Shown piece after piece: positions 8,354 through 32,990 of a stretch of DNA of 64,000 nt. The notes beneath the pieces are model-generated. The model ran no database searches. It was not told the origin of the DNA and saw nothing but the letters and a program-made list of their open reading frames with translations. Position 1 is the stretch's first letter; each line of letters begins with the position of its first letter. Both the position numbers and the translations under genes were made by a program. Location: the NCBI RefSeq assembly GCF_024228675.1, contig NZ_CP100461.1, forward strand, positions 310,001 through 374,000. The letters are read 5' to 3'. This DNA is from Salinigranum marinum. GTDB taxonomy: Archaea; Halobacteriota; Halobacteria; Halobacteriales; Haloferacaceae.

Positions 8354-8821
8354 ATGAGTCGAATCCACGGCGTCGAAGTTCGTGATTTGCAGGTCAACAC
8401 CGACGAACGCGGTCACCTCGTCGAGGTGTTCCGAGACGACTGGGAGTTGTACGATCCAGAGCCGGCTATGTCGTACTACTCGCTGAGTTACCCCGGTGTC
8501 ATCAGGGCGTGGCACCGTCACCTTCGCGGACAGGTTGACCACTTCATCTGTCCACAGGGCCGCATCAAGGTCGGCATCTACGACGACAGAGATGACTCGC
8601 CGACACAAGGAGAGGTAAACAAATTCATCATCGGCGAACACAACCAGCGGGCCATACGGATCCCTGGTGACTGCTGGCACGGGTTCAAAGTCGTCGGCAA
8701 CGAGCAGGCGATTCTGCTGAACTTCCCGACTAACCTCTACGATTATGATGACCCTGATGAAGAACGGTTGCCACCGCATACGGATCAGATTCCTCTCGAC
8801 TGGGAGGAGCAACCACACTAA
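8354..8821 (+). CDS. rmlC: dTDP-4-dehydrorhamnose 3,5-epimerase
   Basis: 155 aa, starting MSRIHGVEVRDLQVNTDERG. The cupin motif GVIRAWHRHLRGQVDHFICP contains the catalytic His, and RIPGDCWHGFKVVG is the second conserved block. It epimerises C3 and C5 of the 4-keto sugar before RmlD reduction. It is slightly shorter than bacterial RmlC (~180 aa), as is common for the archaeal short type. A decayed second copy of this gene is at 28510-28890; the C-terminal stretch PDEERLPPHTDQIPLDW is identical in both. Confidence 0.92.
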   Translation: MSRIHGVEVRDLQVNTDERGHLVEVFRDDWELYDPEPAMSYYSLSYPGVIRAWHRHLRGQVDHFICPQGRIKVGIYDDRDDSPTQGEVNKFIIGEHNQRAIRIPGDCWHGFKVVGNEQAILLNFPTNLYDYDDPDEERLPPHTDQIPLDWEEQPH

Positions 8822-12439: not shown

Positions 12440-12925
12440 ATGAACCGCCGGCGGACGCTCCACCTTTCGTGCTGTGGCCTGCTCTCGCTTCTCGCGGGGT
12501 GTAGCGACTTCGGGAGCCGTGCGCCGACGATGCACGAGGTCGGTGAGTCGTTCGTGGTCGGTTCCGCGAACCCGATCGAATACCGGGTGAACTTGGCCAT
12601 CGACACGGACCAGATGCCGAACGTTATCGATGGATTCGTGTTCGTCGAAGTGGAGTTCGAGAACCTCGCGACGCAGGCGCTCGATATCTACCCCGAGTTG
12701 TTCTCGCTGTCGGCCGCTGGCGGGAGTCAGAACGAGTATGTCCGTAACGAGACGACAACGCTGGTCAATCCGCTCGAGGCCCGTGCCCTTCAGCCCAACG
12801 AGTCCGGGGTGGGAGAACTCCTGTATCCGGTTCCCGACGCCGACGTGTTCTATCTGCTCGTCGAACCCGTTCGGCCGGTCGAACCGACGCCAGTCCACCG
12901 AGTTCGGCTCGACAACGCCCTGTGA
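12440..12925 (+). CDS. Secreted lipoprotein, unknown function (DUF4352-like fold possible)
   Basis: 161 aa. MNRRRTLHLSCCGLLSLLAG is followed by Cys, giving a lipobox (L-L-A-G-C) for membrane anchoring after export; the double Arg near the N-terminus would suit Tat export. The mature part is a beta-rich domain with FVFVEVEFENLATQALDIYP, a pattern seen in DUF4352/telomere-repeat-factor-like extracellular domains. The last ~35 codons and the 3' flank (12833-12948) are repeated in decayed form at 13748-13862, on the far side of the VapBC pair. Confidence 0.75.
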   Translation: MNRRRTLHLSCCGLLSLLAGCSDFGSRAPTMHEVGESFVVGSANPIEYRVNLAIDTDQMPNVIDGFVFVEVEFENLATQALDIYPELFSLSAAGGSQNEYVRNETTTLVNPLEARALQPNESGVGELLYPVPDADVFYLLVEPVRPVEPTPVHRVRLDNAL

Positions 12926-12982
12926 TCGATTCACCCCGGGAAGTAAATTATGGAGCACGTCTGATGCAGTGCCGCTAATGGC

Positions 12983-13378
12983 TCAACGGTATTCGTCGAC
13001 AGTAACTACCTTCTTCGTCTCGGAATGGGTGAGATCCCGGTCGTTCGAGACGACGGTCCCTCCGACGTCGCGTGCGACGGCCGCCACAAGAGCATCGATC
13101 GCAGTGAGTTGGGGTCCCCGTGGACCGATATCGTCTGCGACCTCAGCTGCCGTCACTGCCGTCTGTTCGCAAATCTCATAGATATCGGCCCACGAAACGT
13201 TCCGTTGCATCGCAGCCAGATCGGTCGGAGCCGTGCTGTGGACGTCCCCAAGAAGGAACTCGGTGAGGACTACCGACGGGAGTATAAATTCGTCGTCGGC
13301 GTGATCGAGCAGGTACTCTTTGGTGTCAATCACGCCGTCGTCGTAGTCGATCAAAAACGTCGTGTCGAGAACTCTCAT
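12983..13378 (-). CDS. vapC: PIN-domain ribonuclease toxin (VapC family)
   Basis: 131 aa, starting MRVLDTTFLIDYDDGVIDTK. The PIN acidic residues are visible as D5 and D12 at the N-terminus, E40 in VVLTEFLLGD, D93 in AIDALVAAVA, and the final D in VVSNDRDL. PIN toxins cleave RNA with a divalent metal. Its start overlaps the stop of the upstream antitoxin gene by 4 bp (ATGA-type overlap at 13375-13378), the usual layout of a VapBC operon. The module is flanked by repeated lipoprotein 3' ends. Confidence 0.85.
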   Translation of the reverse strand: MRVLDTTFLIDYDDGVIDTKEYLLDHADDEFILPSVVLTEFLLGDVHSTAPTDLAAMQRNVSWADIYEICEQTAVTAAEVADDIGPRGPQLTAIDALVAAVARDVGGTVVSNDRDLTHSETKKVVTVDEYR

Positions 13379-13623
13379 TCGGAGCGGCCCTGGGCCAGTT
13401 GCTCGATATTCGTTGCCGACTCCTTCTTTCCATCTTCGTGCACCTCGCGCATTTTCTCCGGACGGTCAGTTCCTTTGCCCGCACCGAAGCCTGCGAGGAG
13501 GTCTCGATCGTCCGAAAGAACGCGCTCCATCACGTCGTTGTAGCTCTCACCCTCTCGCTTCCGCCGATCGAGCATCTTTTTTACCCGCTTGCTCACTCGG
13601 ATGTGGTCGTCTGCACTCCCCAT
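13375..13623 (-). CDS. vapB: VapB-like antitoxin (ribbon-helix-helix type)
   Basis: 82 aa. DDHIRVSKRVKKMLDRRKRE and SYNDVMERVL fit the short beta-strand plus two helices of haloarchaeal ribbon-helix-helix antitoxins. The acidic and basic C-terminal tail (FGAGKGTDRPEKMREVHEDG) probably wraps the toxin. It is the first gene of the pair and overlaps vapC by 4 bp. Such proteins normally repress their own promoter; the AT-rich stretch at 13624-13685 is the likely operator and promoter. Confidence 0.75.
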   Translation of the reverse strand: MGSADDHIRVSKRVKKMLDRRKREGESYNDVMERVLSDDRDLLAGFGAGKGTDRPEKMREVHEDGKKESATNIEQLAQGRSE

Positions 13624-13747
13624 ATCACGTTAACGTGGGTGTTAACGCAACTTGTAGCTTCCGCTACTTGATTATTTTTCGCCGTCCTGGTGCACGTCGA
13701 CGCGTACGACGTTTTCGAGGGAGTCTCGCTCGGAGTCAAACAGCGGG

Positions 13748-13862
13748 TCCCCGATGCTGACGTGTTTTAGTTGCTCGTCGAGCCCGTTCGGCCGGTCGAG
13801 CCAACGCCGTCCACCGAGTGCGGCTCGACAACGCGCTGTGATCTATACACCGCGGGAAGCAA
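13748..13862 (+). pseudogene. Decayed duplicate of the lipoprotein 3' end
   Basis: About 115 bp aligns with 12833-12948 (end of the lipoprotein gene plus 3' flank) with a single-base gap and scattered substitutions; I estimate 85-88% identity by eye. In this copy the Tyr codon of DVFYLLVEPVRP has become TAG (13768-13770) and a base is missing near 13808, so it cannot encode the same tail. It lies on the other side of the vapBC operon from the intact copy. Confidence 0.8.
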
Positions 13863-13990
13863 ATCCATCAGCAAGGAGCGGATACTGAGTCCCAACGGTT
13901 CGGTGCAGTTGGTGGTGACGACCACTCGAAATCGGAGTTGGCTCTTTGTTGACTGAGGTGCCCCTGGAAGAGTAACTGGAGGATGGGGGA

Positions 13991-14366
13991 CACCAGTGTC
14001 GCGAGTGTATCACTCAAATGAAGACGGAAGACGAAAGCACACACCACCGTCGCGAGTGTAACAGTCGAAGTCGGTATCTGAGCAAGGAACTCACACACTA
14101 CCGTCGCGAGTGTAACATCCGGGTGTGGATTAGCTGGTTAACAGCTACCCCCACCGAAGGTCACGGAAATCCGTTGGGCCGGGTAAGAATGCAGAGCAAC
14201 ACGCGTTCACACCAGTCTGCGATCCGGTCCGTAGAAGGCGACTGGATACGACGCATGCACTCCACCGACAGTTACACTCGCGATAGAGGTGTGTCTCGCG
14301 TTCAGCGTTCGTTTGCCTGAGTCAGTTCCGTACTCCACTTCGGGTTTACACTCGCGAGTATGGTTA
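13991..14366. other. Candidate replication origin with five ORB-like repeats
   Basis: The core TCGCGAGTGTA occurs at 13999-14009, 14050-14060 and 14104-14114 on the plus strand and in inverted orientation at 14273-14283 and 14347-14357. The plus copies share a wider context (ca-c--c-gTCGCGAGTGTAaCa) and are spaced 51 and 54 bp apart. The set lies directly upstream of an orc1/cdc6 gene, and 14360-14460 is AT-rich and could be the unwinding element. This is the layout of haloarchaeal origins, in which each Orc1/Cdc6 recognises the repeats next to its own gene. No coding sequence is seen here. Confidence 0.75.
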
Positions 14367-14447
14367 ATATGAACCAAATTTGATTTCAGACTACAGAATC
14401 GTCCAATACCGTGTTATCAACACAAATACACACGCGGGATTACCCCG

Positions 14448-14480
14448 TGTTTTTATACTATGAAGAGGAGAGTATGGATT
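14448..14480 (+). promoter_or_regulatory. TATA box for a leaderless orc1/cdc6 transcript
   Basis: TTTTATA at 14451-14457 is centred about 27 bp before the ATG at 14481, the distance at which haloarchaeal transcription starts. This predicts a leaderless mRNA beginning at or next to that ATG and favours it over the in-frame ATG at 14460. Confidence 0.5.
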
Positions 14481-15707
14481 ATGACTGATGAGGAACTCGA
14501 CCGGGACCCGCTGTTCAGATACGAACAGCCAATTTTTGCTGATGAGGATCTCCTCAAGATCACCCACATCCCTGGTCCAGAGCGAATCGTCGGTCGTGAC
14601 CAGCACATGCAAGAAGTCGCGGATGCACTCAACCCAGCAATCTTTGGCCAGGAACCGACGCACCTGTTCGTGTTCGGAAAGACGGGGACTGGAAAGACTT
14701 TGACTTCGCGGAGTGTGAGCGAGCGGGTGGTCACAGAAGCGGCACGAGGCGACACGCGTGTTTCGACTGTGTTCGTCGACTGCGGTGAGCAGAACACTGA
14801 AGCCTCGGTCATCAAGACGATTGCCCGGCGGATCAACGATCCGAACCGAACGGGATTTACCGTACCTGAGCGGGGGCTCGCCACTGGCGACTATTACACT
14901 CGATTGTGGAAGGTTCTCGACAGCTGCACCGACGTAGTGATCATCATCCTCGACGAGATCGATATGCTTCAAGACGACGAGGTCCTCAGAAAGCTCTCTC
15001 GAGCGGGTGAGAATCGTCGAATATCCTCGTCGAACATCGGTATCATCGGTATCTCGAACAAAATCGATTTTCCCGAGCAGCTGACAGAGCGCGTCAAATC
15101 GAGCTTCGCACACGACGAGCTCGTCTGTCCACCGTACGATGCGAACCAGCTCCGCGAAATCCTCGAACATCGCCGCGATGCGTTTCAGGAAGGTGTGCTG
15201 ACGGATGACGTCATCCCACTCACCGCAGCCCTCGCAGCGCAGGAGCACGGGGATGCTCGCAAGGCGATCGACATCTTACGTAACGCTGGCCGCCTGGCGA
15301 CGAGGAACGGTGACGATCAGGTCACGGCTGAACACGTTCATGCCGCGAAAGAGAAGACAGAGGCTGATCGATTTGCCGAACTCATCGATGGTGCACCAAC
15401 ACAGGCGAAGCTCATTTTGTACGCGTTGACGCACCTCACGGAGTCACACTCGGAAAGCGAGTTCTCGACCAAGAAAATATTCAAGGCGTATCGAACGCTG
15501 GCCGAGACACTCGATGTGAAACCGCTGTCTGAACGGCGAGTTCAAGAGATTCTCAAAGAACAAGATTTTCTCAACGTGATTCAATCCGAGCGGCGTGGTC
15601 GTGGTCGAGGACGTGGGATGTACGCGACCCATCGGCTGCTCGAGGACGCACCGATCGTCAAGCGTGTCTTGCAACGTGATTCGAGACTATCAGAGATCGG
15701 TGAATAG
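14481..15707 (+). CDS. cdc6: Orc1/Cdc6 replication initiator
   Basis: 408 aa from MTDEELDRDPLFRYEQPIFA. The AAA+ Walker A (FGKTGTGKT) is at about 65-73 and Walker B (VIIILDEID) at about 153-161, with sensor residues after GIIGISNKIDFPEQL. The C-terminal ~110 residues (LILYALTHLTESHSESEF to RGRGRGMYATHRL) form a winged helix that binds origin repeats. Both domains are complete. It lies beside five repeats at 13991-14366 and should load replication machinery there. Haloarchaea carry many such genes on chromosomes and plasmids, so it does not say which replicon this is. Confidence 0.93.
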   Translation: MTDEELDRDPLFRYEQPIFADEDLLKITHIPGPERIVGRDQHMQEVADALNPAIFGQEPTHLFVFGKTGTGKTLTSRSVSERVVTEAARGDTRVSTVFVDCGEQNTEASVIKTIARRINDPNRTGFTVPERGLATGDYYTRLWKVLDSCTDVVIIILDEIDMLQDDEVLRKLSRAGENRRISSSNIGIIGISNKIDFPEQLTERVKSSFAHDELVCPPYDANQLREILEHRRDAFQEGVLTDDVIPLTAALAAQEHGDARKAIDILRNAGRLATRNGDDQVTAEHVHAAKEKTEADRFAELIDGAPTQAKLILYALTHLTESHSESEFSTKKIFKAYRTLAETLDVKPLSERRVQEILKEQDFLNVIQSERRGRGRGRGMYATHRLLEDAPIVKRVLQRDSRLSEIGE

Positions 15708-16728: not shown

Positions 16729-17775
16729 ATGGCTAGTACCAACGCAATCGGACAAGAAGGTTCGGACCGAGTCGACGAACAGACGCACAAACAGCGGACG
16801 AGACGGTGTGAGGAGTGCGGTGGACGGGTGGTTCGAGAGGCGATCGAGACGGTGTGTGCGGGGTGTGGGCTTGTCGTCGACGAGGACGCCCTTGTTCGAG
16901 GGATGAGCCCCAGTCTGCACAAACACGGCGAGGTGGGGAGCGGACCCGTTGAGTGGAGTCTGGAGATGACGACATCGCTTCGAGTCGATCGCGGCCTGCA
17001 CACGACGTTCTTTCTCTCTACCGATGGGTACGGGAACACGTTATCGACGGCGCAGAAGGACTTCTACGGGAGACTGCGGATGCGACACAAGCGCTTCCAG
17101 ATGGAGTCCAAACGAGCGATTCGGCTGAACGAGGGGTTGCGCGACATCCAGATGATCGTCGGGAACCTCGGGCTCCCAGGCTATGTGGCCGCGGACGCGG
17201 CGGCACTGTTGAAGCAAGCGTCAGAGGCGCGGCTCCCGGGTGGGCGGATGGCCTGGGAGGCGCTCGCGGCCGGGGCAGTCTATGTGGCGACGAGCCAGTC
17301 CGGGTTCAGACGGACGACGGAGGAGGTCGCGGTGCACGCAAAGACCTCTCACGAACGGGTGTGCGCGGCGGCGCGGAAGCTGCGCTGTGAACTTGGCTTG
17401 ATGGATGAAGTGCCTCCAACCCAGGCGTGGGCGGTCGACGCGGTCGTCGAAGTGTTGGGCGAGCGCGAGGGGATAGAGCTGGACGTGTGTCTCCAACTCA
17501 GACGAGCCGGCGAGTTCCTGCTCGATGTGGCCGACGGGGCGTGTCTCGGTCCGGGCACGGCACGTGTGACGATGGCGGCTGCGGCGGTGTACGCGGCCGA
17601 TCGGCTGACTGAGGGGAAGACGATAACTCAACAGGACGTCGCGGACGCGGCGAGTACAGTCGTGGCGACCTCGAAGTCGAAAGTGAGTGGCTACTCCCGG
17701 GAGGTGGTCGGTGCGTACGAGACGGCGTACGGGACGCGCGATGTCGAGGACGTGATGGCGAGTCGGCTGGCCTGA
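16729..17775 (+). CDS. tfb: Transcription initiation factor IIB (divergent TFB paralogue)
   Basis: 348 aa. The N-terminal zinc ribbon is C27/C30 (RRCEECGG) and C43/C46 (VCAGCGLV), followed by a B-reader/linker region with SPSLHKHGEVGSGPVEWSLE. Two cyclin folds follow (about 110-205 and 215-315: IQMIVGNLGLPGYVAADAAA, AWEALAAGAVYVATSQSGF, VTMAAAAVYAADRLTEGKTI). It recruits RNA polymerase to TBP-bound promoters. Haloarchaea have many TFBs that divide promoters among them; this one diverges from the canonical sequence, for example GLHTTFFLSTDGYGNTL in place of the usual swapped linker motif. Its 3' end is duplicated in decayed form at 19188-19501. Confidence 0.9.
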   Translation: MASTNAIGQEGSDRVDEQTHKQRTRRCEECGGRVVREAIETVCAGCGLVVDEDALVRGMSPSLHKHGEVGSGPVEWSLEMTTSLRVDRGLHTTFFLSTDGYGNTLSTAQKDFYGRLRMRHKRFQMESKRAIRLNEGLRDIQMIVGNLGLPGYVAADAAALLKQASEARLPGGRMAWEALAAGAVYVATSQSGFRRTTEEVAVHAKTSHERVCAAARKLRCELGLMDEVPPTQAWAVDAVVEVLGEREGIELDVCLQLRRAGEFLLDVADGACLGPGTARVTMAAAAVYAADRLTEGKTITQQDVADAASTVVATSKSKVSGYSREVVGAYETAYGTRDVEDVMASRLA

Positions 17776-19142: not shown

Positions 19143-19187
19143 GTTCATCGGAGCACCAGAACGGGTGTGCAGCCGGGGGGACGTTGC

Positions 19188-19501
19188 GGTGTGACCATCG
19201 CGGCTGCAACAGTGTACGCGGCAGATCGACTGATAGAGGGGAATATGATAACTCAATAGGATGTCGCGGATGCGACGAGTGCGGTCCTGGCGACGTCGAA
19301 GCGGAAGGTGAGTGGCTACTCTCAGGGATGGTCGGTGCGTACGAGACGAGAGACGGGACGCTCGAAATCGAGGACGTACTGACAGATCGGCTGGCCTGAG
19401 CGGGCCGGCTGGTTCTTCTTTTTTTGGCCACCGCCCGCACCCCCCTCCCCACTCACCGCTCCGTGCTCGCTCTCGGTGGTCGCTGCGCGCGCAGCCACGA
19501 C
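19188..19501 (+). pseudogene. Decayed duplicate of the tfb 3' end and flank
   Basis: Aligns with 17565-17884 over its whole length. It begins VTIAAATVYAADRLIEGNMI, then CAG has become TAG (19257-19259), and later a lost base shifts the frame around SGYSQ. The stop, the T-run and the gctgcgcgcgcagccacgac flank are still present. There is no zinc ribbon or first cyclin fold, so this was never a whole tfb gene here, or only its end was copied. Confidence 0.85.
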
Positions 19502-20759: not shown

Positions 20760-20880
20760 AGTTGACCCGGGCGGAGTGAACTACCCCACCCTACCGCTCG
20801 TCTGACGGCTCACGCTTGAGAGTGGGGCTTCCTGTTTCCACGACGCGCTTTGCATCCACAACCGAGGACACAGGGAGCGC
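20740..20880 (-). ncRNA. Possible omega RNA / right end of the TnpB element
   Basis: In IS200/IS605-group elements the guide RNA of TnpB is made from the 3' end of tnpB and the element's right end. Here the 3' end encodes ETGSPTLKREPSDER and is followed by ggtggggtagttcactccgc and the foldable cccgggtcaactcccccgggg. The GGAAGCCCCAC...GTGGGGT pairing across the stop codon would form a stem. The boundary of the element is not visible, so this is inferred from family knowledge. Confidence 0.3.
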
Positions 20881-22014
20881 AGTCTCCACAGGCGTTGATT
20901 CGGAGCGTCCCGCTCCTAACCGCTTTGTGATACCGCGAAAAAGAATGTTCCATGCCGCGTTCGCGTCTCTATCCGCCTCGAACCCACACGCCGGACAGGA
21001 GTGTTCACGCACCCACAGCGGCTTCTCGGTCGAAACGCCGCAGGACGCACACTCTTTCGTCGTCCCTCTCGGATTTACGCCGACGAAGTGCGTTCCTTCC
21101 CGCTCGCACTTGTATTCGAGCATCCGCAGGAACGTCCCCCACGCCGCGCCTGCCCGGTTCCGCGAGTTGCCCGGCAGTTCGACCAACCCCTTCGCGTCCA
21201 AGTCCTCCACGGCCACGAGGTCGTACTCTCGGGCGTAGTAGGTTGAGAGTTTGTGGAGGAAGTCCCGCCGCTTGTTCTTCAGGTCGGCGTGGCGTTCGGC
21301 CACGACGCGGCGCTGTTTCTCCCAATTCGCAGACCCGTCTTCCTTCCGCGATAGGCTCCGTTGAGCGCGTTCCAATCGCTCGCGCTCGTCGGACAGGTCG
21401 AGGGATTCGACGGCGGTGCCGTCGGTGTCGTGAGCATACTTGAGAATCCCCACGTCGATGCCGACGCACTTCTCGGGAGTCTCAGGCCTCTCCGGTGGGT
21501 CGTCCGGGGTTTCGACACCGAGAATGGCGTACCACTTCCCGGTGGGTTCCTGCTTGACGGTGACGGTCTTAATGTCGGCGTCGTCGGGGAGGTCGCGGTG
21601 GAAAGTGAGTGGGATATCTCCGAGTTTCGAGAGCCACAGTCGCGTCCGACCGCTCGTGTTCTTGAGCTTGAAGCCGGATTGACTGTAGGTGAAACTGCGG
21701 TACTCGCCCGGTGCCTTCCACTTGAGCGTCCCGACGCGGTAGCCGTTCTCTTTGCGTCCACGAAGCGTCGAGAGATTGTCGTACAAGCGTTGAACGACTT
21801 TCTGAAGAACTTTCGAGTGAACGCTTTTCAGGTCACTCCACCACTTCTTGAGGCTCGGCAAGAGTTTCTGCTCGCTGTATGCCGAGGTGTTGTCAGTGCG
21901 GTTGAGACGGTGGAGGAAGTGGTTGTAGACCTGCCTACAGGTATCGACAGTCCACGCTAACTGTTCTTCGAGTGCGTCGGACGGTCGAAGTCGATACCTG
22001 TAGTTGTAGTTCAC
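20791..22014 (-). CDS. tnpB: TnpB, RNA-guided RuvC nuclease of an IS200/IS605-type element
   Basis: 407 aa starting at a GTG (NYNYRYRLRPSDALEEQLAW). It is complete. The RuvC-I Asp is in CVGIDVGILKYAHD (~190), the RuvC-II Glu in LVAVEDLDAKGLVELP (~272), and a zinc ribbon CASCG...CPACG (~327-346) is followed by the RuvC-III Asp in ADRDANAAWNI. TnpB cuts DNA next to a target-adjacent motif using an RNA from the element end and helps keep the transposon at its site. No TnpA gene is present, so the element depends on a transposase in trans. Its start overlaps the stop of the 39-aa gene (TCGTGAAC). Confidence 0.92.
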   Translation of the reverse strand: MNYNYRYRLRPSDALEEQLAWTVDTCRQVYNHFLHRLNRTDNTSAYSEQKLLPSLKKWWSDLKSVHSKVLQKVVQRLYDNLSTLRGRKENGYRVGTLKWKAPGEYRSFTYSQSGFKLKNTSGRTRLWLSKLGDIPLTFHRDLPDDADIKTVTVKQEPTGKWYAILGVETPDDPPERPETPEKCVGIDVGILKYAHDTDGTAVESLDLSDERERLERAQRSLSRKEDGSANWEKQRRVVAERHADLKNKRRDFLHKLSTYYAREYDLVAVEDLDAKGLVELPGNSRNRAGAAWGTFLRMLEYKCEREGTHFVGVNPRGTTKECASCGVSTEKPLWVREHSCPACGFEADRDANAAWNILFRGITKRLGAGRSESTPVETALPVSSVVDAKRVVETGSPTLKREPSDER

Positions 22015-26985: not shown

Positions 26986-27386
26986 TGACGGTCAGCGACG
27001 ACCACGTCCACGCGTGGAACCAGCCAGACGACCCTGACTGCCCTCAAGTGTTGACAACACCGGAGCAGGTACTGACTGGACTTCCACTCGGGTTAGCGAC
27101 GCTCGAAGTGCTCTGTGACACATGTGGTACCAGCATGGGTGAGGGAGCGGACGTGTTCGTGTACGCGTACCGGGCCGCAGAGGCACCGCGATGGTCCCTC
27201 GCGGGGTGTTACTGTGAGACGTGTGCGCCGTCGGGGATCAGAAAGCCGACGCTTGGGACGACTGAAGTACTCGTCAGCGCCCAGTTGGCGGTCGTGTCGC
27301 ATCCACGCGAACAGCGTCACAGTCTCTGTGTGTCCACGCCGACACTGCGGTCGTTCTCACCACCGACGCGAGGGTCCGCACCATGA
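26985..27386 (+). CDS. Cys-rich haloarchaeal protein, unknown function (copy 1)
   Basis: 133 aa from MTVSDDHVHAWNQPDDPDCP. The centre holds VLCDTCGTSMGEGADVFVYA and LAGCYCETCAPSGIRKPTLG, two CxxC pairs in a likely zinc-binding fold, with the last ~35 residues variable. A second copy at 30226 keeps both CxxC pairs and the block LTTPEQVLxGLPLGLATLE. Because the conserved block ends at QLAVVSxPxERRHS, the tail past it may be noncoding-like drift. It overlaps the Mrr gene by 4 bp. Confidence 0.65.
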   Translation: MTVSDDHVHAWNQPDDPDCPQVLTTPEQVLTGLPLGLATLEVLCDTCGTSMGEGADVFVYAYRAAEAPRWSLAGCYCETCAPSGIRKPTLGTTEVLVSAQLAVVSHPREQRHSLCVSTPTLRSFSPPTRGSAP

Positions 27387-28414
27387 GTGACTCGGGGAGT
27401 CGAGAATCGCTGGCTGCTCGACTGACTGCGCTCGAGGACACAGTCGAGAGCCTCGAAACACGAGTGGACGCCCTCGCGACTGTCGGTGCCGAGATGAACA
27501 GTAAGGAAGAGAAGTACGCTACTGTCCTGGAACTCGCGTTCGGGAAGTGCGGTGATTCCGAGACGGTTTCGGTCGGTCCCCACGAAATTCGAGAATGTAC
27601 CAGTGTGTCCAGACGCTATGCGTACGAGTTAATCGATGACATGGGCACATCGTTGCCGGGATGTACGGTCCGCGAGTCGGACGTGGTAGAGACGATCACT
27701 GGAACCCGGCGTCGGTCGAAGGCACTACTTGTTGATCGTGCTGTCGTTCGGAGTCAAAATGGCTCTACCATACTCTCAGATCGGGCTGAATCGAGCGAAG
27801 AAGATGATGCGAGCGTACGGACTACGGGTGAATTGGAGGTGTTGAATGGGCTGACACCCCGTGGTTTCGAGGAGTACGTTGCGGACCTCTGGCGGGCCAG
27901 TGGGTATGAGTGTCGTCTCACGAAACAAAGCCGAGACAGCGGCGTCGACGTCGTCGCCGTGAAGGGAGACGAGCGAGTCCACATCCAGGTGAAACGGTAT
28001 TCGGCCAGTGACGTTGGCATCGAGACTGTCCAGCGAGTCGCTGGGCTCTTAGTTGACGACGAGTTTGAGGCGTCGACGGTTCGAGTAGTCACGACGTCCG
28101 GATTCACTATGGATGCAACACAGCGGGCTGAGCGAATCGGCGATCTCGAGTTGGTCGACGGTCCTGCGGTCGTCGCGCGTGGGAGGGGTCTGGGACTTTC
28201 GCTCCACGGCGAGGATCACAAATACGAAACGGAGCTGACGGATGAGAAGGTCCTTTCCGTGATGGTACCTGGGGAACCCGTGACGACGAGTGAGGTAGCA
28301 GATGCGCTCGAGACGGACTCACGGTCGGTGCTGGTCCATCTTGAGTCGCTCGTGGAAGCAGGGGAGATTCGGCTCAAGCGGATTGGGGAGGAGTATGGGG
28401 TGTGGTATCGATAG
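27383..28414 (+). CDS. Mrr-type restriction endonuclease
   Basis: 343 aa. Residues 1-45 form a coiled coil (LTALEDTVESLETRVDALAT). Residues ~50-110 look like a winged helix (SVGPHEIRECTSVSRRYAYE). The Mrr_cat domain is at ~150-255, with GLTPRGFEEYVADLWRASGY, the catalytic Asp in SRDSGVDVVAVKGDERVHI, and QVKRYS (QxK). A C-terminal winged helix (VMVPGEPVTTSEVADALETD) follows. Mrr nucleases cut modified or foreign DNA. The start overlaps the Cys-rich gene (ATGA at 27383-27386). It is a probable defence nuclease; no methylase is nearby. Confidence 0.82.
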   Translation: MSDSGSRESLAARLTALEDTVESLETRVDALATVGAEMNSKEEKYATVLELAFGKCGDSETVSVGPHEIRECTSVSRRYAYELIDDMGTSLPGCTVRESDVVETITGTRRRSKALLVDRAVVRSQNGSTILSDRAESSEEDDASVRTTGELEVLNGLTPRGFEEYVADLWRASGYECRLTKQSRDSGVDVVAVKGDERVHIQVKRYSASDVGIETVQRVAGLLVDDEFEASTVRVVTTSGFTMDATQRAERIGDLELVDGPAVVARGRGLGLSLHGEDHKYETELTDEKVLSVMVPGEPVTTSEVADALETDSRSVLVHLESLVEAGEIRLKRIGEEYGVWYR

Positions 28415-28509
28415 CGGCTTGGGGAAGTCTGGTTGAGAGACGAGTCTGATTTGCTGCTTCGACGGGTCGTGTACAGGTCCGTAGAGCGAGTGGCGTAGTA
28501 TCGGACATC

Positions 28510-28890
28510 TTAGTGTGGCTGTTCGTCCCAGTCCAGTGGAATCTGGTCTGTGTGTGGAGGCAACCGTTCTTCGTCGGGATCTTCGTAGTCGTAGACGTTC
28601 GTCGGGGAACTCAGGAGAATCGCCTGTTCGTTGCCGATAAGTTTGAACCCGTGCCAGCAATCGCCGGGAATTCGGATCACCTGTTGGTTGTGCTCGCCGA
28701 TGACGAACTTGTTGACCTCGCCCCGTCTGGGGGGCGTCCCAGTCGTTATTATAGCCGACTTTGATCCGTCGCTGTGGACAGATGAAGGGATCGGTCTGTC
28801 CGCGGAGATGGCGGTGCCACGCTCTGATGACCCGGGTAGGACAAGAGAATAGTAGCTCCTCACTGGCTCGAGATCGTACTGATGTCGGGG
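28510..28890 (-). pseudogene. Decayed rmlC copy
   Basis: The minus strand reads YDLEPVRSYYSLVLPG, then in a shifted frame VIRAWHRHLRGQTDPFICPQ, then, back in frame, EVNKFVIGEHNQQVIRIPGD and CWHGFKLIGNEQAILLSSPT, ending DQIPLDWDEQPH. These pieces match the intact rmlC at 8354 block by block. The N-terminal ~35 codons are missing and two frame changes (about 28735 and 28815) break it. It is a remnant of a second rhamnose gene set, like the broken rmlA at 30772. Confidence 0.85.
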
Positions 28891-28931
28891 TGTTAGTCAA
28901 CGCTTCGGTACACGATCGTGAGTATCGGAAG

Positions 28932-30089
28932 TCACGCTCGGTCAATCGCGCGTCGATACACGGTCTCTGCCTGCTCGGCCACCGTATCCCAGTCGAACCG
29001 GGTTGCACGCTCCGTCGGGTTCACCGGTGGACGCTCCCCTGCGAGTGCCCGATCGAGCGCCTCGGCGACGCCGTCGACAGTCGGATCGACGAGATAGCCT
29101 GCGTCTCCCAGCACTTCATCGGCAGCCGAGCTCGGGTGGTTCGCAGCGATCACCGTGCAGTCCGCAGCCATCGCCTCGGCGTACGTGATCCCGAACCCTT
29201 CGCGAGTCGAGGGTGAGGCGAAGACGCGTGCAGCGCGCATGTGCCCGAGGACATCCTCATACTCGTCTAAGAACCCGAGGAAGGTGACACGGTCCCCGTG
29301 ATCGAGTTGCTTCGCGTGTGCGTGTAGTTCGTCCGACTTCGGTCCGTCCCCAATGATGCCGAGTGTGATATCGTGGCGTGCGGCGACCCGGTCGAGCGCG
29401 TTGAGGAGAACGTCCACGCGTTTGTCCTCGATCAGTCGTCCCGCAAAGAGGACGTCGAACCCAGGTTGGCCGTCTGCTCGGTATGAGTCTGTCGGCAGTG
29501 GTGCGTTTCGGATCTGCCCGACGCCGATCCCGTTCGGCACGACATCGATTGCGTTTCTATCGGGACCGATGACGGCGAGTCTGTCGGCTGTGATCCCCGA
29601 GACGGCGACCGGGTGCTGTGGGGTTCGGGCGGTGACTCGTTCGATGAGCTTGCCACCGATGGCGAGGTTTCCGAGGTAGTCGTCCCAGTAGTCGCCCCAC
29701 ACTTCGTGCCAGGTGGTTACCAATGGTGTGTTCGTCAGGAGGGTGCAGAGTTTCGACGAGAGAACCGGGAAGTACGGGAAGACACTCGCGACGACGAGAT
29801 CATGGTCGTTGATGTGCGGTCGGAGCGTGGGAACAAGGTGTGCGGAGAAGTCGATGGCCTCAGTGATCGAGCGCTGGCCGTCGTTGTTGTAGAGGTCGAC
29901 GCCTGGGGCTGCCGCTCGGAGCGTCATTCCCTCGTAGGTGATTTCTTTCGGGCCGTCCCAGAAGTGCCGCCCGTAGACCGTGACGTCGTGACCTCGGTTT
30001 GTAAGACGAGTCCCGATTTCGTGTATGCGCTTTTCTGCACCGCCCTTGACGAACGGAAAGACGACGTTGGAGACGAAGCAAACACGCAT
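28932..30089 (-). CDS. GT4-family glycosyltransferase
   Basis: 385 aa, starting MRVCFVSNVVFPFVKGGAEK. The GT-B N-domain has GGAEKRIHEIGTRL, and the C-domain has FDVLFAGRLIEDKRVDVLLN near 225 and the EX7E motif in STREGFGITYAEAMAADCTV near 305. It fits an archaeal AglL/PimB-like mannosyl- or glucosyltransferase of surface-glycan assembly. It is high in GC, unlike the AT-rich GT genes at 1955 and 35957. A truncated, frameshifted paralogue is at 45546-46258. Confidence 0.88.
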   Translation of the reverse strand: MRVCFVSNVVFPFVKGGAEKRIHEIGTRLTNRGHDVTVYGRHFWDGPKEITYEGMTLRAAAPGVDLYNNDGQRSITEAIDFSAHLVPTLRPHINDHDLVVASVFPYFPVLSSKLCTLLTNTPLVTTWHEVWGDYWDDYLGNLAIGGKLIERVTARTPQHPVAVSGITADRLAVIGPDRNAIDVVPNGIGVGQIRNAPLPTDSYRADGQPGFDVLFAGRLIEDKRVDVLLNALDRVAARHDITLGIIGDGPKSDELHAHAKQLDHGDRVTFLGFLDEYEDVLGHMRAARVFASPSTREGFGITYAEAMAADCTVIAANHPSSAADEVLGDAGYLVDPTVDGVAEALDRALAGERPPVNPTERATRFDWDTVAEQAETVYRRAIDRA

Positions 30090-30225: not shown

Positions 30226-30618
30226 GTGCAGAGTTCGGTATGCGAGATAACTCGTAGAAAACCGTCTAATCAGGTTGATAACGAGTCCCTGCACCCATGG
30301 TACCTCCCAGACGAGTACGACCCCCATTGCCCGCAGGTGTTGACGACACCGGAACAGGTACTCATTGGACTTCCACTTGGGTTAGCGACGCTCGAAGCGC
30401 TCTGTGACACGTGTGGTACCAGCATGTATGAGGGAGGAGGCCTGTTCGTGTATGCGTACCGGGCCGTAGAGACACCCCGATGTTGGCTCGCGGGGTGTTA
30501 CTGTGAAACGTGTACACCGTCAGGGACTCGAAAGCCGACGCGCGGTACAACTGGAGTACTCGTCGGCGCCCAGTTAGCCGTCGTTTCGCTCCCGCAGGAA
30601 CGGCGTCACAGTCCCTAA
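30226..30618 (+). CDS. Cys-rich haloarchaeal protein, unknown function (copy 2)
   Basis: 130 aa from a GTG at 30226; the true start may be later, since similarity to copy 1 (26985) begins at NESLHPWYLPDEYDPHCPQV. CDTCGTSMYEGGGLFVYAYR and LAGCYCETCTPSGTRKPTRG keep both CxxC pairs. By eye the two genes are about 80% identical in DNA over ~320 bp. Unlike copy 1 it has no microprotein upstream and no nuclease downstream; the next gene is the broken rmlA copy. Confidence 0.6.
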   Translation: MQSSVCEITRRKPSNQVDNESLHPWYLPDEYDPHCPQVLTTPEQVLIGLPLGLATLEALCDTCGTSMYEGGGLFVYAYRAVETPRCWLAGCYCETCTPSGTRKPTRGTTGVLVGAQLAVVSLPQERRHSP

Positions 30619-31544: not shown

Positions 31545-32990
31545 ACTACTGTCGGTAGTTCCCATCACGTCAGCTGATAGCTACGACTGTCGTGGTTAGA
31601 TTCTCAGGAAGCGTCTGGATGGGTGTTGATGAAGTGTTTATACCATCCAGACACTGTTCTTACGGCCTCTGACCTTGAAATCTTAGCGGAAGGCCTCCTC
31701 GCAGAGCTACCGATACCCGGAGTCGAAGGCTGCGGCTTCGACTCCGGGATTATCCGACGGACGCTCCTCCAAGCAGCTGTTGACCAGACCTCGATCAAGG
31801 CGGTCACCGACAGCACTCGTGGAACCTACTCCGACGACTACACGCTTGCTCAGCTTCACACCATCCCACCTGAAGAACTCGAAGCCACCGTCAACCTCCT
31901 CCTCAGACAACAGGCGACGATGATCCTCGGCCCCGGCCCGAGGATCATCTGTCTTGACTTCGTCGACGTCCACTACCACGGCTGTCCACACCACTCTCCC
32001 GGTGAACTCTGTCACACGACGCCCCGCGATGGCACCTCACAGTGCCATCGCTACCTCGCTGGATTCGTCCTCTGTCGGGCGAAACCACTCGTCGTCGCCG
32101 TCACTGCTGTTCGTGGAGACGAACCAATAAGCGACGCGGTCGAGCGACTGCTCGACCACGTCGCGGCACTTCCCTTCGATGTCGCCAGTCTCCTCTGTGA
32201 CCGCGGGTTCTACAACGGGGCGTGCATCCAGCGGTTGCGTGAGACTGCTCCGGTCGTTCTCCCGGTCATCCGACGCGGCCAACGGATGGCCGAGAAACTA
32301 GAGACGTCGATCTCCTACTGGACGGAGTACACAATGTACGAGGGAAGCGAGCGGGAACTGCGCTTCCCGCTCGCTGTCTGTGTCTCCTACCGACAGGGCA
32401 AGCGGGGGAAGCACGGACTGCTTGTTCGTGCCTACATGGCGTGCGATCTGGCTGATCGCACGCCGAAGGAGGTTGAGGCTCTCTACCGGAAACGATCAGC
32501 CATCGAGACAGCCTTTCGAACCATGCGCGAAGCGCGCGTGCACGCACAACCACGACCGACCCGGTCGTTCGGTTGGTGTTCGTGCTGGTGAGTTTCCTGT
32601 TGCGGAATCTGTGGCTGATCGTTCGCTGGGGCGTGCTCGCCACGCCGCGGCGCGGCGGGCGAGCACTACCCGTGTGGTTCCGCTTCGAGGTATTCCGAGC
32701 GTGGATCAACCACACGCTCGACGAACTGCTACACCGGAAGTGGGAAGCACCGACCAATGGTGTGGGGATTCCCGCGACGTATGGTCAGCTGGACGCGGGC
32801 TGACCGAGCCCGCGTCCAGCGAGTGCCCCTGAAGAGCAGTTGCTAGGCATCGCCATCACATATTCGGCGCTCTCACTGACGTGAGACCGCCTTTCGCTGG
32901 CTATTGTCTCCGTACCGAGATCGAACTTGTCGCTTCCGCCGTGGAAAATCAAGTCAGCGTGTAGAACCGATGGGAACTACCGACTGTAGT
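31545..32990 (+). mobile_element. ISH3-like insertion sequence, 1446 bp
   Basis: Terminal inverted repeats of 22 bp with one mismatch are at 31545-31566 (actactgtcggtagttccca and two more bases) and 32969-32990. They enclose a single DDE transposase gene with a frameshift. I found no convincing target-site duplication next to the ends. The element separates the broken rmlA copy from the second IS and the AT-rich glycosyltransferase block. Confidence 0.75.
31623..32803 (+). pseudogene. DDE transposase of the ISH3-like element, frameshifted
   Basis: The first frame runs to about 32530 and includes RIICLDFVDVHYHGCPHHSP (first Asp), ASLLCDRGFYNGACIQRLRE (second Asp) and YRKRSAIETAFRTMREA (Glu). 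The second frame then gives ARTTTTDPVVRLVFVLVSFL and WFRFEVFRAWINHTLDELLH to 32803. The DDE residues are all in the first frame, so only the C-terminal hydrophobic helix region is lost by the shift at 32530-32545. The shift lies in a gcgcgcgtgcacgcac run. Confidence 0.8.

Follow-up and report, generated by a model that had tools for sequence, protein, structure and literature searches.

Duplicated gene ends around vapBC suggest entry of haloarchaeal toxin-antitoxin genes at gene borders by ordinary recombination

Introduction

How does a toxin-antitoxin gene pair come to lie between a working and a decayed copy of the same gene end? Toxin-antitoxin pairs also occur in chromosomes, apart from plasmids and phages, and how they arrive at such sites is an open question. 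The locus described here lies in a window of 64,000 nucleotides, the whole stretch of DNA that was analyzed, which has a GC content of 55.5% and covers 310–374 kb of a 4.0-Mb contig in a haloarchaeal genome of 4.9 Mb. In this window, a vapBC pair predicted to be a type II toxin-antitoxin system stands between two copies of the 3′ end of a lipoprotein gene. The footprint found here and in several relatives suggests ordinary recombination, not an integrase of their own, as the means by which toxin-antitoxin genes enter at gene borders. The features of the locus are as follows (window coordinates).

12440–12925, + strand: intact lipoprotein gene (161 aa, lipobox LLAGC; near-orphan)
12829–12948, + strand: proximal, intact copy of the repeated lipoprotein gene end, including 23 nt past the stop codon
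12949–13745: module of 797 bp between the copies, with vapC, vapB and the promoter side; terminal inverted repeats looked for and not found (P = 0.11)
12983–13378, − strand: vapC toxin gene, PIN domain (PF01850, E = 5.4e-9)
13375–13623, − strand: vapB antitoxin gene (PF02697, E = 5e-10)
13624–13654, − strand: presumed vapBC promoter/operator, GTTAAC..GTTAAC
13655–13745: stretch of 91 bp that separates the vapB promoter from the distal copy
13746–13864, + strand: distal, decayed copy of the lipoprotein gene end, with TAG at 13768–13770 and one nucleotide missing between 13808 and 13809
14460–15707: Orc1/Cdc6 gene, beyond the distal copy and the TTACACTCGCGA-type motifs

The Repeated Gene End and Its Surroundings

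The pair was assigned to VapBC type II on the basis of a PIN-domain toxin with an adjacent VapB, PF01850 and PF02697 both scoring above the gathering thresholds. DNA similarity between this pair and other vapBC loci stops at about 13654. The lipoprotein shows a weak resemblance to DUF4352, with a score under the Pfam cut-off. Adjoining the decayed gene end, repeated TTACACTCGCGA-type motifs, some direct and some inverted, occupy 13982–14459, ahead of the Orc1/Cdc6 gene, and the region holding these motifs and this gene is probably a replication origin. Boxes resembling the same motifs are also present in G001 and G002.

The first-pass annotation had reported that about 115 bp of the lipoprotein gene’s 3′ end recur on the far side of vapBC. 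This was confirmed, with the ends shifted by a few bases: the two copies (12829–12948 and 13746–13864) are identical in 104 of 120 aligned columns, with 15 substitutions and one gap (BLAST E = 7.6e-34 within the window). Its account of the copies also held, as the proximal one completes an open reading frame of 161 aa and the distal one carries the TAG and has lost one nucleotide after 13808. A similarity shorter than about 60 bp, or one present genome-wide, had been named as grounds against insertion. The alignment spans twice that length, and a search of the whole genome returned exactly two copies of the gene end, both at this locus; a chance match or a genome-wide repeat was rejected since there is no third copy. 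There is no long identical core: mismatches are scattered throughout the repeat, and the longest identical run is 17 nt. Downstream of both copies, the similarity ends abruptly (P = 0.97 against shuffles). Upstream, the score is marginal and probably due to chance (P = 0.04), and no longer lipoprotein fossil or gene body was found ahead of the distal copy.

Selective History of the Two Ends

Of the substitutions between the copies, 11 lie in coding sequence: 10 are synonymous and one is the nonsense change that produced the TAG. Changes fall at 10 of 32 third positions (about 31%, the divergence of the two ends) and at 1 of 64 first and second positions (P = 5e-5). Under random substitution, about 3 of 11 would be expected to be synonymous, and at least 10 were seen in none of 20,000 simulations of neutral divergence. 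If one copy had been a pseudogene ever since the duplication, the probability of the synonymous pattern would be 0.003. These figures indicate that the two ends diverged mostly while both coded for a working protein, before the distal one broke. The distal copy is thus the leftover of a once-functional allele or paralogue, not a fresh duplication.

Because 10 of the 11 coding substitutions are synonymous, each end belonged to its own functional allele or gene before the module arrived between them. A simple recent duplication through insertion at this locus is excluded by the same count. The histories that remain compatible are an incoming, already diverged end, a later replacement by a diverged allele, and an old tandem paralogue; the synonymous bias matches what is expected of an incoming end.

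Can an empty site decide among them? The search for a close orthologue of the lipoprotein covered genomes of the genus (4), the family (170) and the order (392), viral contigs, plasmids and a pattern scan of the genome collection, and found none; the best matches are DUF4352-like proteins of about 30% identity in two family members. Since the gene is a near-orphan without close relatives, no empty site is obtainable for it, and none of the genomes searched has an intact lipoprotein gene without vapBC. When the origin by Orc1/Cdc6 was used as an anchor, it was found conserved in one genus mate (L020), where the left flank is unrelated.

Search for Mobility Genes and Terminal Repeats

No integrase was recognized near the locus when the 24 open reading frames of at least 220 aa in 1–32000 were read by eye and a selection was compared with Pfam, in agreement with the first-pass annotation. 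Its analogy to tRNA-targeting, site-specific integration found no support, as there is no recognized integrase, inverted repeat or long core. The module contains vapB and vapC only, and hence no site-specific recombinase. No transposase or integrase was recognized between or beside the repeats; the closest mobile genes are those for a TnpB (20791–22014) and a DDE transposase (31623–32591). The terminal inverted repeats of a transposon were likewise missing, with scores at the level of shuffled sequence in all four modules tested.

The Same Footprint at Other Loci

Is this arrangement particular to one gene? A survey covered 108 other vapB loci, 60 of them with 20 kb of surrounding DNA and 48 with less, and recorded direct repeats that flank a module-sized stretch with a length of 45 nt or more and an identity of 80% or more, a criterion fixed after the first cases had been seen. 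Such repeats flank 3 of the 108 loci, a small sample of partly orthologous loci; at 1486 control points taken from the same genomes, there were none (P = 3e-4). A less strict criterion leaves a weak enrichment (6 of 60 vs. 61 of 1486, P = 0.04). Repeat lengths are 119/120 bp at the window and 66, 47 and 104 bp at the other vapBC loci.

The 66-bp case involves rnz, the gene for RNase Z. In G058, the rnz end is followed by vapBC, then by a decayed copy of the rnz end that carries a stop codon and begins at the vapC stop codon, and then by the native downstream DNA. In G054, G055, G056 and G057, a single rnz end leads directly into the DNA that lies beyond the G058 insert, and this is a true empty site, with four empty genomes to one filled. 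The distal rnz copy carries 4 synonymous, 5 nonsynonymous and 1 nonsense change, a pattern of neutral decay that is compatible with either a replacement end or a plain target duplication. Behind rnz in G059, the nearest sister of G058, lies a decayed vapB scar (L196), and G053 has a different insert of about 1.3 kb at this position (L199); DNA has come in behind rnz on more than one occasion.

The 104-bp case (L261 in G004, 1290–2458) places vapBC within an older, decayed vapB, with the duplicated sequence 98% identical, and is a young nested insertion. At L060 (G164), 47 bp of a gene 3′ end are duplicated at 91% identity with the orientation seen in the window; the target gene is one of a family rich in paralogues. 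A larger island holding vapBC and genes resembling an MNT-HEPN pair is flanked by 133 bp (L055). Two further flanked vapB loci (L162 and L168) were set aside as not clean, and two others (L255 and L246) were rejected because their gaps are 1.1–2.1 kb and their repeats probably unrelated. The 5′ end of a signal-peptidase gene is duplicated around stacked toxin-antitoxin genes both in the genome of the window (L064/L165, the latter on contig 1 near 3106238) and in G003 (L046/L136). In these two genus members, the start of the gene may have received insertions repeatedly, a supporting but complex case. Taken as four cases with duplications of 47–120 bp, one of them in mid-gene, the vapBC loci point to homology-anchored or illegitimate insertion.

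An arrangement of like architecture with a different toxin-antitoxin family lies 4 kb from vapBC in the window. The TFB gene (16729–17775) is intact, and 322 bp of its 3′ end recur at 19177–19501 with 82% identity. Between the copies are a nucleotidyltransferase gene (PF01909) and then a HEPN-like gene without a Pfam match, so that MNT-HEPN is a reading of the pair based on its arrangement. The distal TFB copy has decayed without constraint (17 synonymous and 24 nonsynonymous changes, 1 stop). The genus mate G001 (L020) has the nucleotidyltransferase/HEPN-like pair as well, together with a TnpB and a fragment of the TFB 3′ end.

Possible Histories of the Locus

The sequences show the duplication, its boundaries, the selective history of its two ends and, at rnz in a relative, the same architecture with empty sites. 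The favored explanation, to which a probability of roughly 55% is assigned, is that vapBC was inserted at the lipoprotein 3′ end by host recombination, without a dedicated integrase, and brought a diverged end with it. Incoming DNA, consisting of a diverged lipoprotein end followed by vapBC, would have paired with the resident gene, and its other end would have been attached by illegitimate joining, either inside the resident end or a short way upstream of it. The product would read, in order, the gene with the incoming end, vapBC, the leftover resident end and the old downstream DNA with the replication origin. The leftover end, now outside any gene, may then have gained its stop codon and deletion. 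Here we infer the one-sided homologous joining, the identity of the incoming end and the absence of a mobilizing enzyme. Host recombination accounts for the variable repeat lengths, the lack of an integrase and of inverted repeats, the intact host gene, the position of the leftover end next to the old downstream DNA, and the way in which the two ends at the window differ like functional alleles. The first-pass annotation had proposed that a module inserted at the 3′ end of the gene and supplied a replacement for it. This fits both the rnz genomes and the synonymous-only divergence; at this locus an origin from tandem paralogues is also possible.

That origin would start from two functional lipoprotein genes in tandem, with vapBC later taking the place of the DNA between them and of the 5′ portion of the second one, whose tail was left. 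It explains the synonymous-only divergence directly and requires no incoming end. It also demands an insertion together with a deletion ending inside the paralogue. The genome has no other lipoprotein paralogue, and none of 170 family genomes has a tandem pair. The recurrence of the footprint at rnz, vapB, the L060 gene and TFB, which are unrelated, would be a coincidence, and the empty rnz genomes have one copy rather than two. This history is considered unlikely. Less probable still is a plain insertion with a long target duplication, of the staggered or replication type, after which a diverged allele took over from the functional gene through homologous recombination. The duplication at L261 (104 bp, 98% identity) and the neutral decay of the distal rnz copy are what such an insertion would leave, but at the window a second event is needed to account for 10 synonymous changes in 11.

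A site-specific integrative element that carried an integrase and a replacement 3′ end, and was later reduced to vapBC, is very improbable. The geometry does match that of the e14 prophage in icd, where an integrase acts and a 163-bp end is duplicated (PMC6379469): the target works with the incoming end, and the old end is a pseudogene copy on the far side. Unlike e14, the locus has no integrase recognized nearby, no identical core and a cargo of only 0.8 kb, and the footprint occurs at four targets with four repeat lengths, one target being entered in mid-gene.

Relation to Other Two-Gene Modules

How does insertion by host recombination compare with what has been described for other modules? 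The original work on restriction-modification genes inserted with long target duplications is reportedly that of Nobusato et al. in 2000 and Furuta et al. in 2010. Such insertions carry target duplications of about 100 bp and are unlinked to mobile elements, and they have been ascribed to restriction-modification systems, not to toxin-antitoxin pairs (PMC3874152). The window resembles these cases in that direct repeats derived from the target, on the order of 100 bp, stand on either side of an addictive two-gene module without linkage to a known mobile element; the empty site in relatives is seen here at rnz. In contrast to the restriction-modification case in Helicobacter, the cargo is a toxin-antitoxin module in haloarchaea. 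Under long target duplication, the copies start identical and the non-functional one decays, as is seen at rnz and L261; the copies at the window instead differ as two functional alleles or genes do.

For effector-immunity arrays, displaced gene ends have been proposed to arise through homology-facilitated illegitimate recombination (PMC5361080), a mechanism described in PMC3240628. As in these arrays, one end would be anchored in a shared gene and the other joined illegitimately, while the old end is displaced downstream and decays. The differences are that the anchor would be an unrelated neighbor gene and that the cargo is a vapBC pair.

No earlier description of this footprint for haloarchaeal toxin-antitoxin pairs was found in the open-access literature. 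A broader proposal, held tentatively and judged doubtful at present, is that haloarchaeal VapBC and MNT-HEPN pairs spread as bare two-gene units through homology-anchored insertion at gene borders, duplicating or replacing host gene ends while the host gene stays functional. If true, toxin-antitoxin pairs would be mobile without a mobility gene, as proposed for restriction-modification systems, and that mode of movement would extend to toxin-antitoxin modules and to archaea. The footprint, consisting of a working end, the module, a decayed end and the old downstream DNA, would record directed insertion events that can be scanned for in genomes and tested in Haloferax.

Other Repeated Sequences in the Window

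A frame at 28319–29008 on the − strand holds peptides resembling the sugar epimerase encoded at 8354–8821 and is probably a decayed second copy of that gene. A 300-bp direct repeat (27028–27327 and 30317–30616), with copies 84% identical and 3 kb apart, is related to a sequence of the genus mate G002 (L023).
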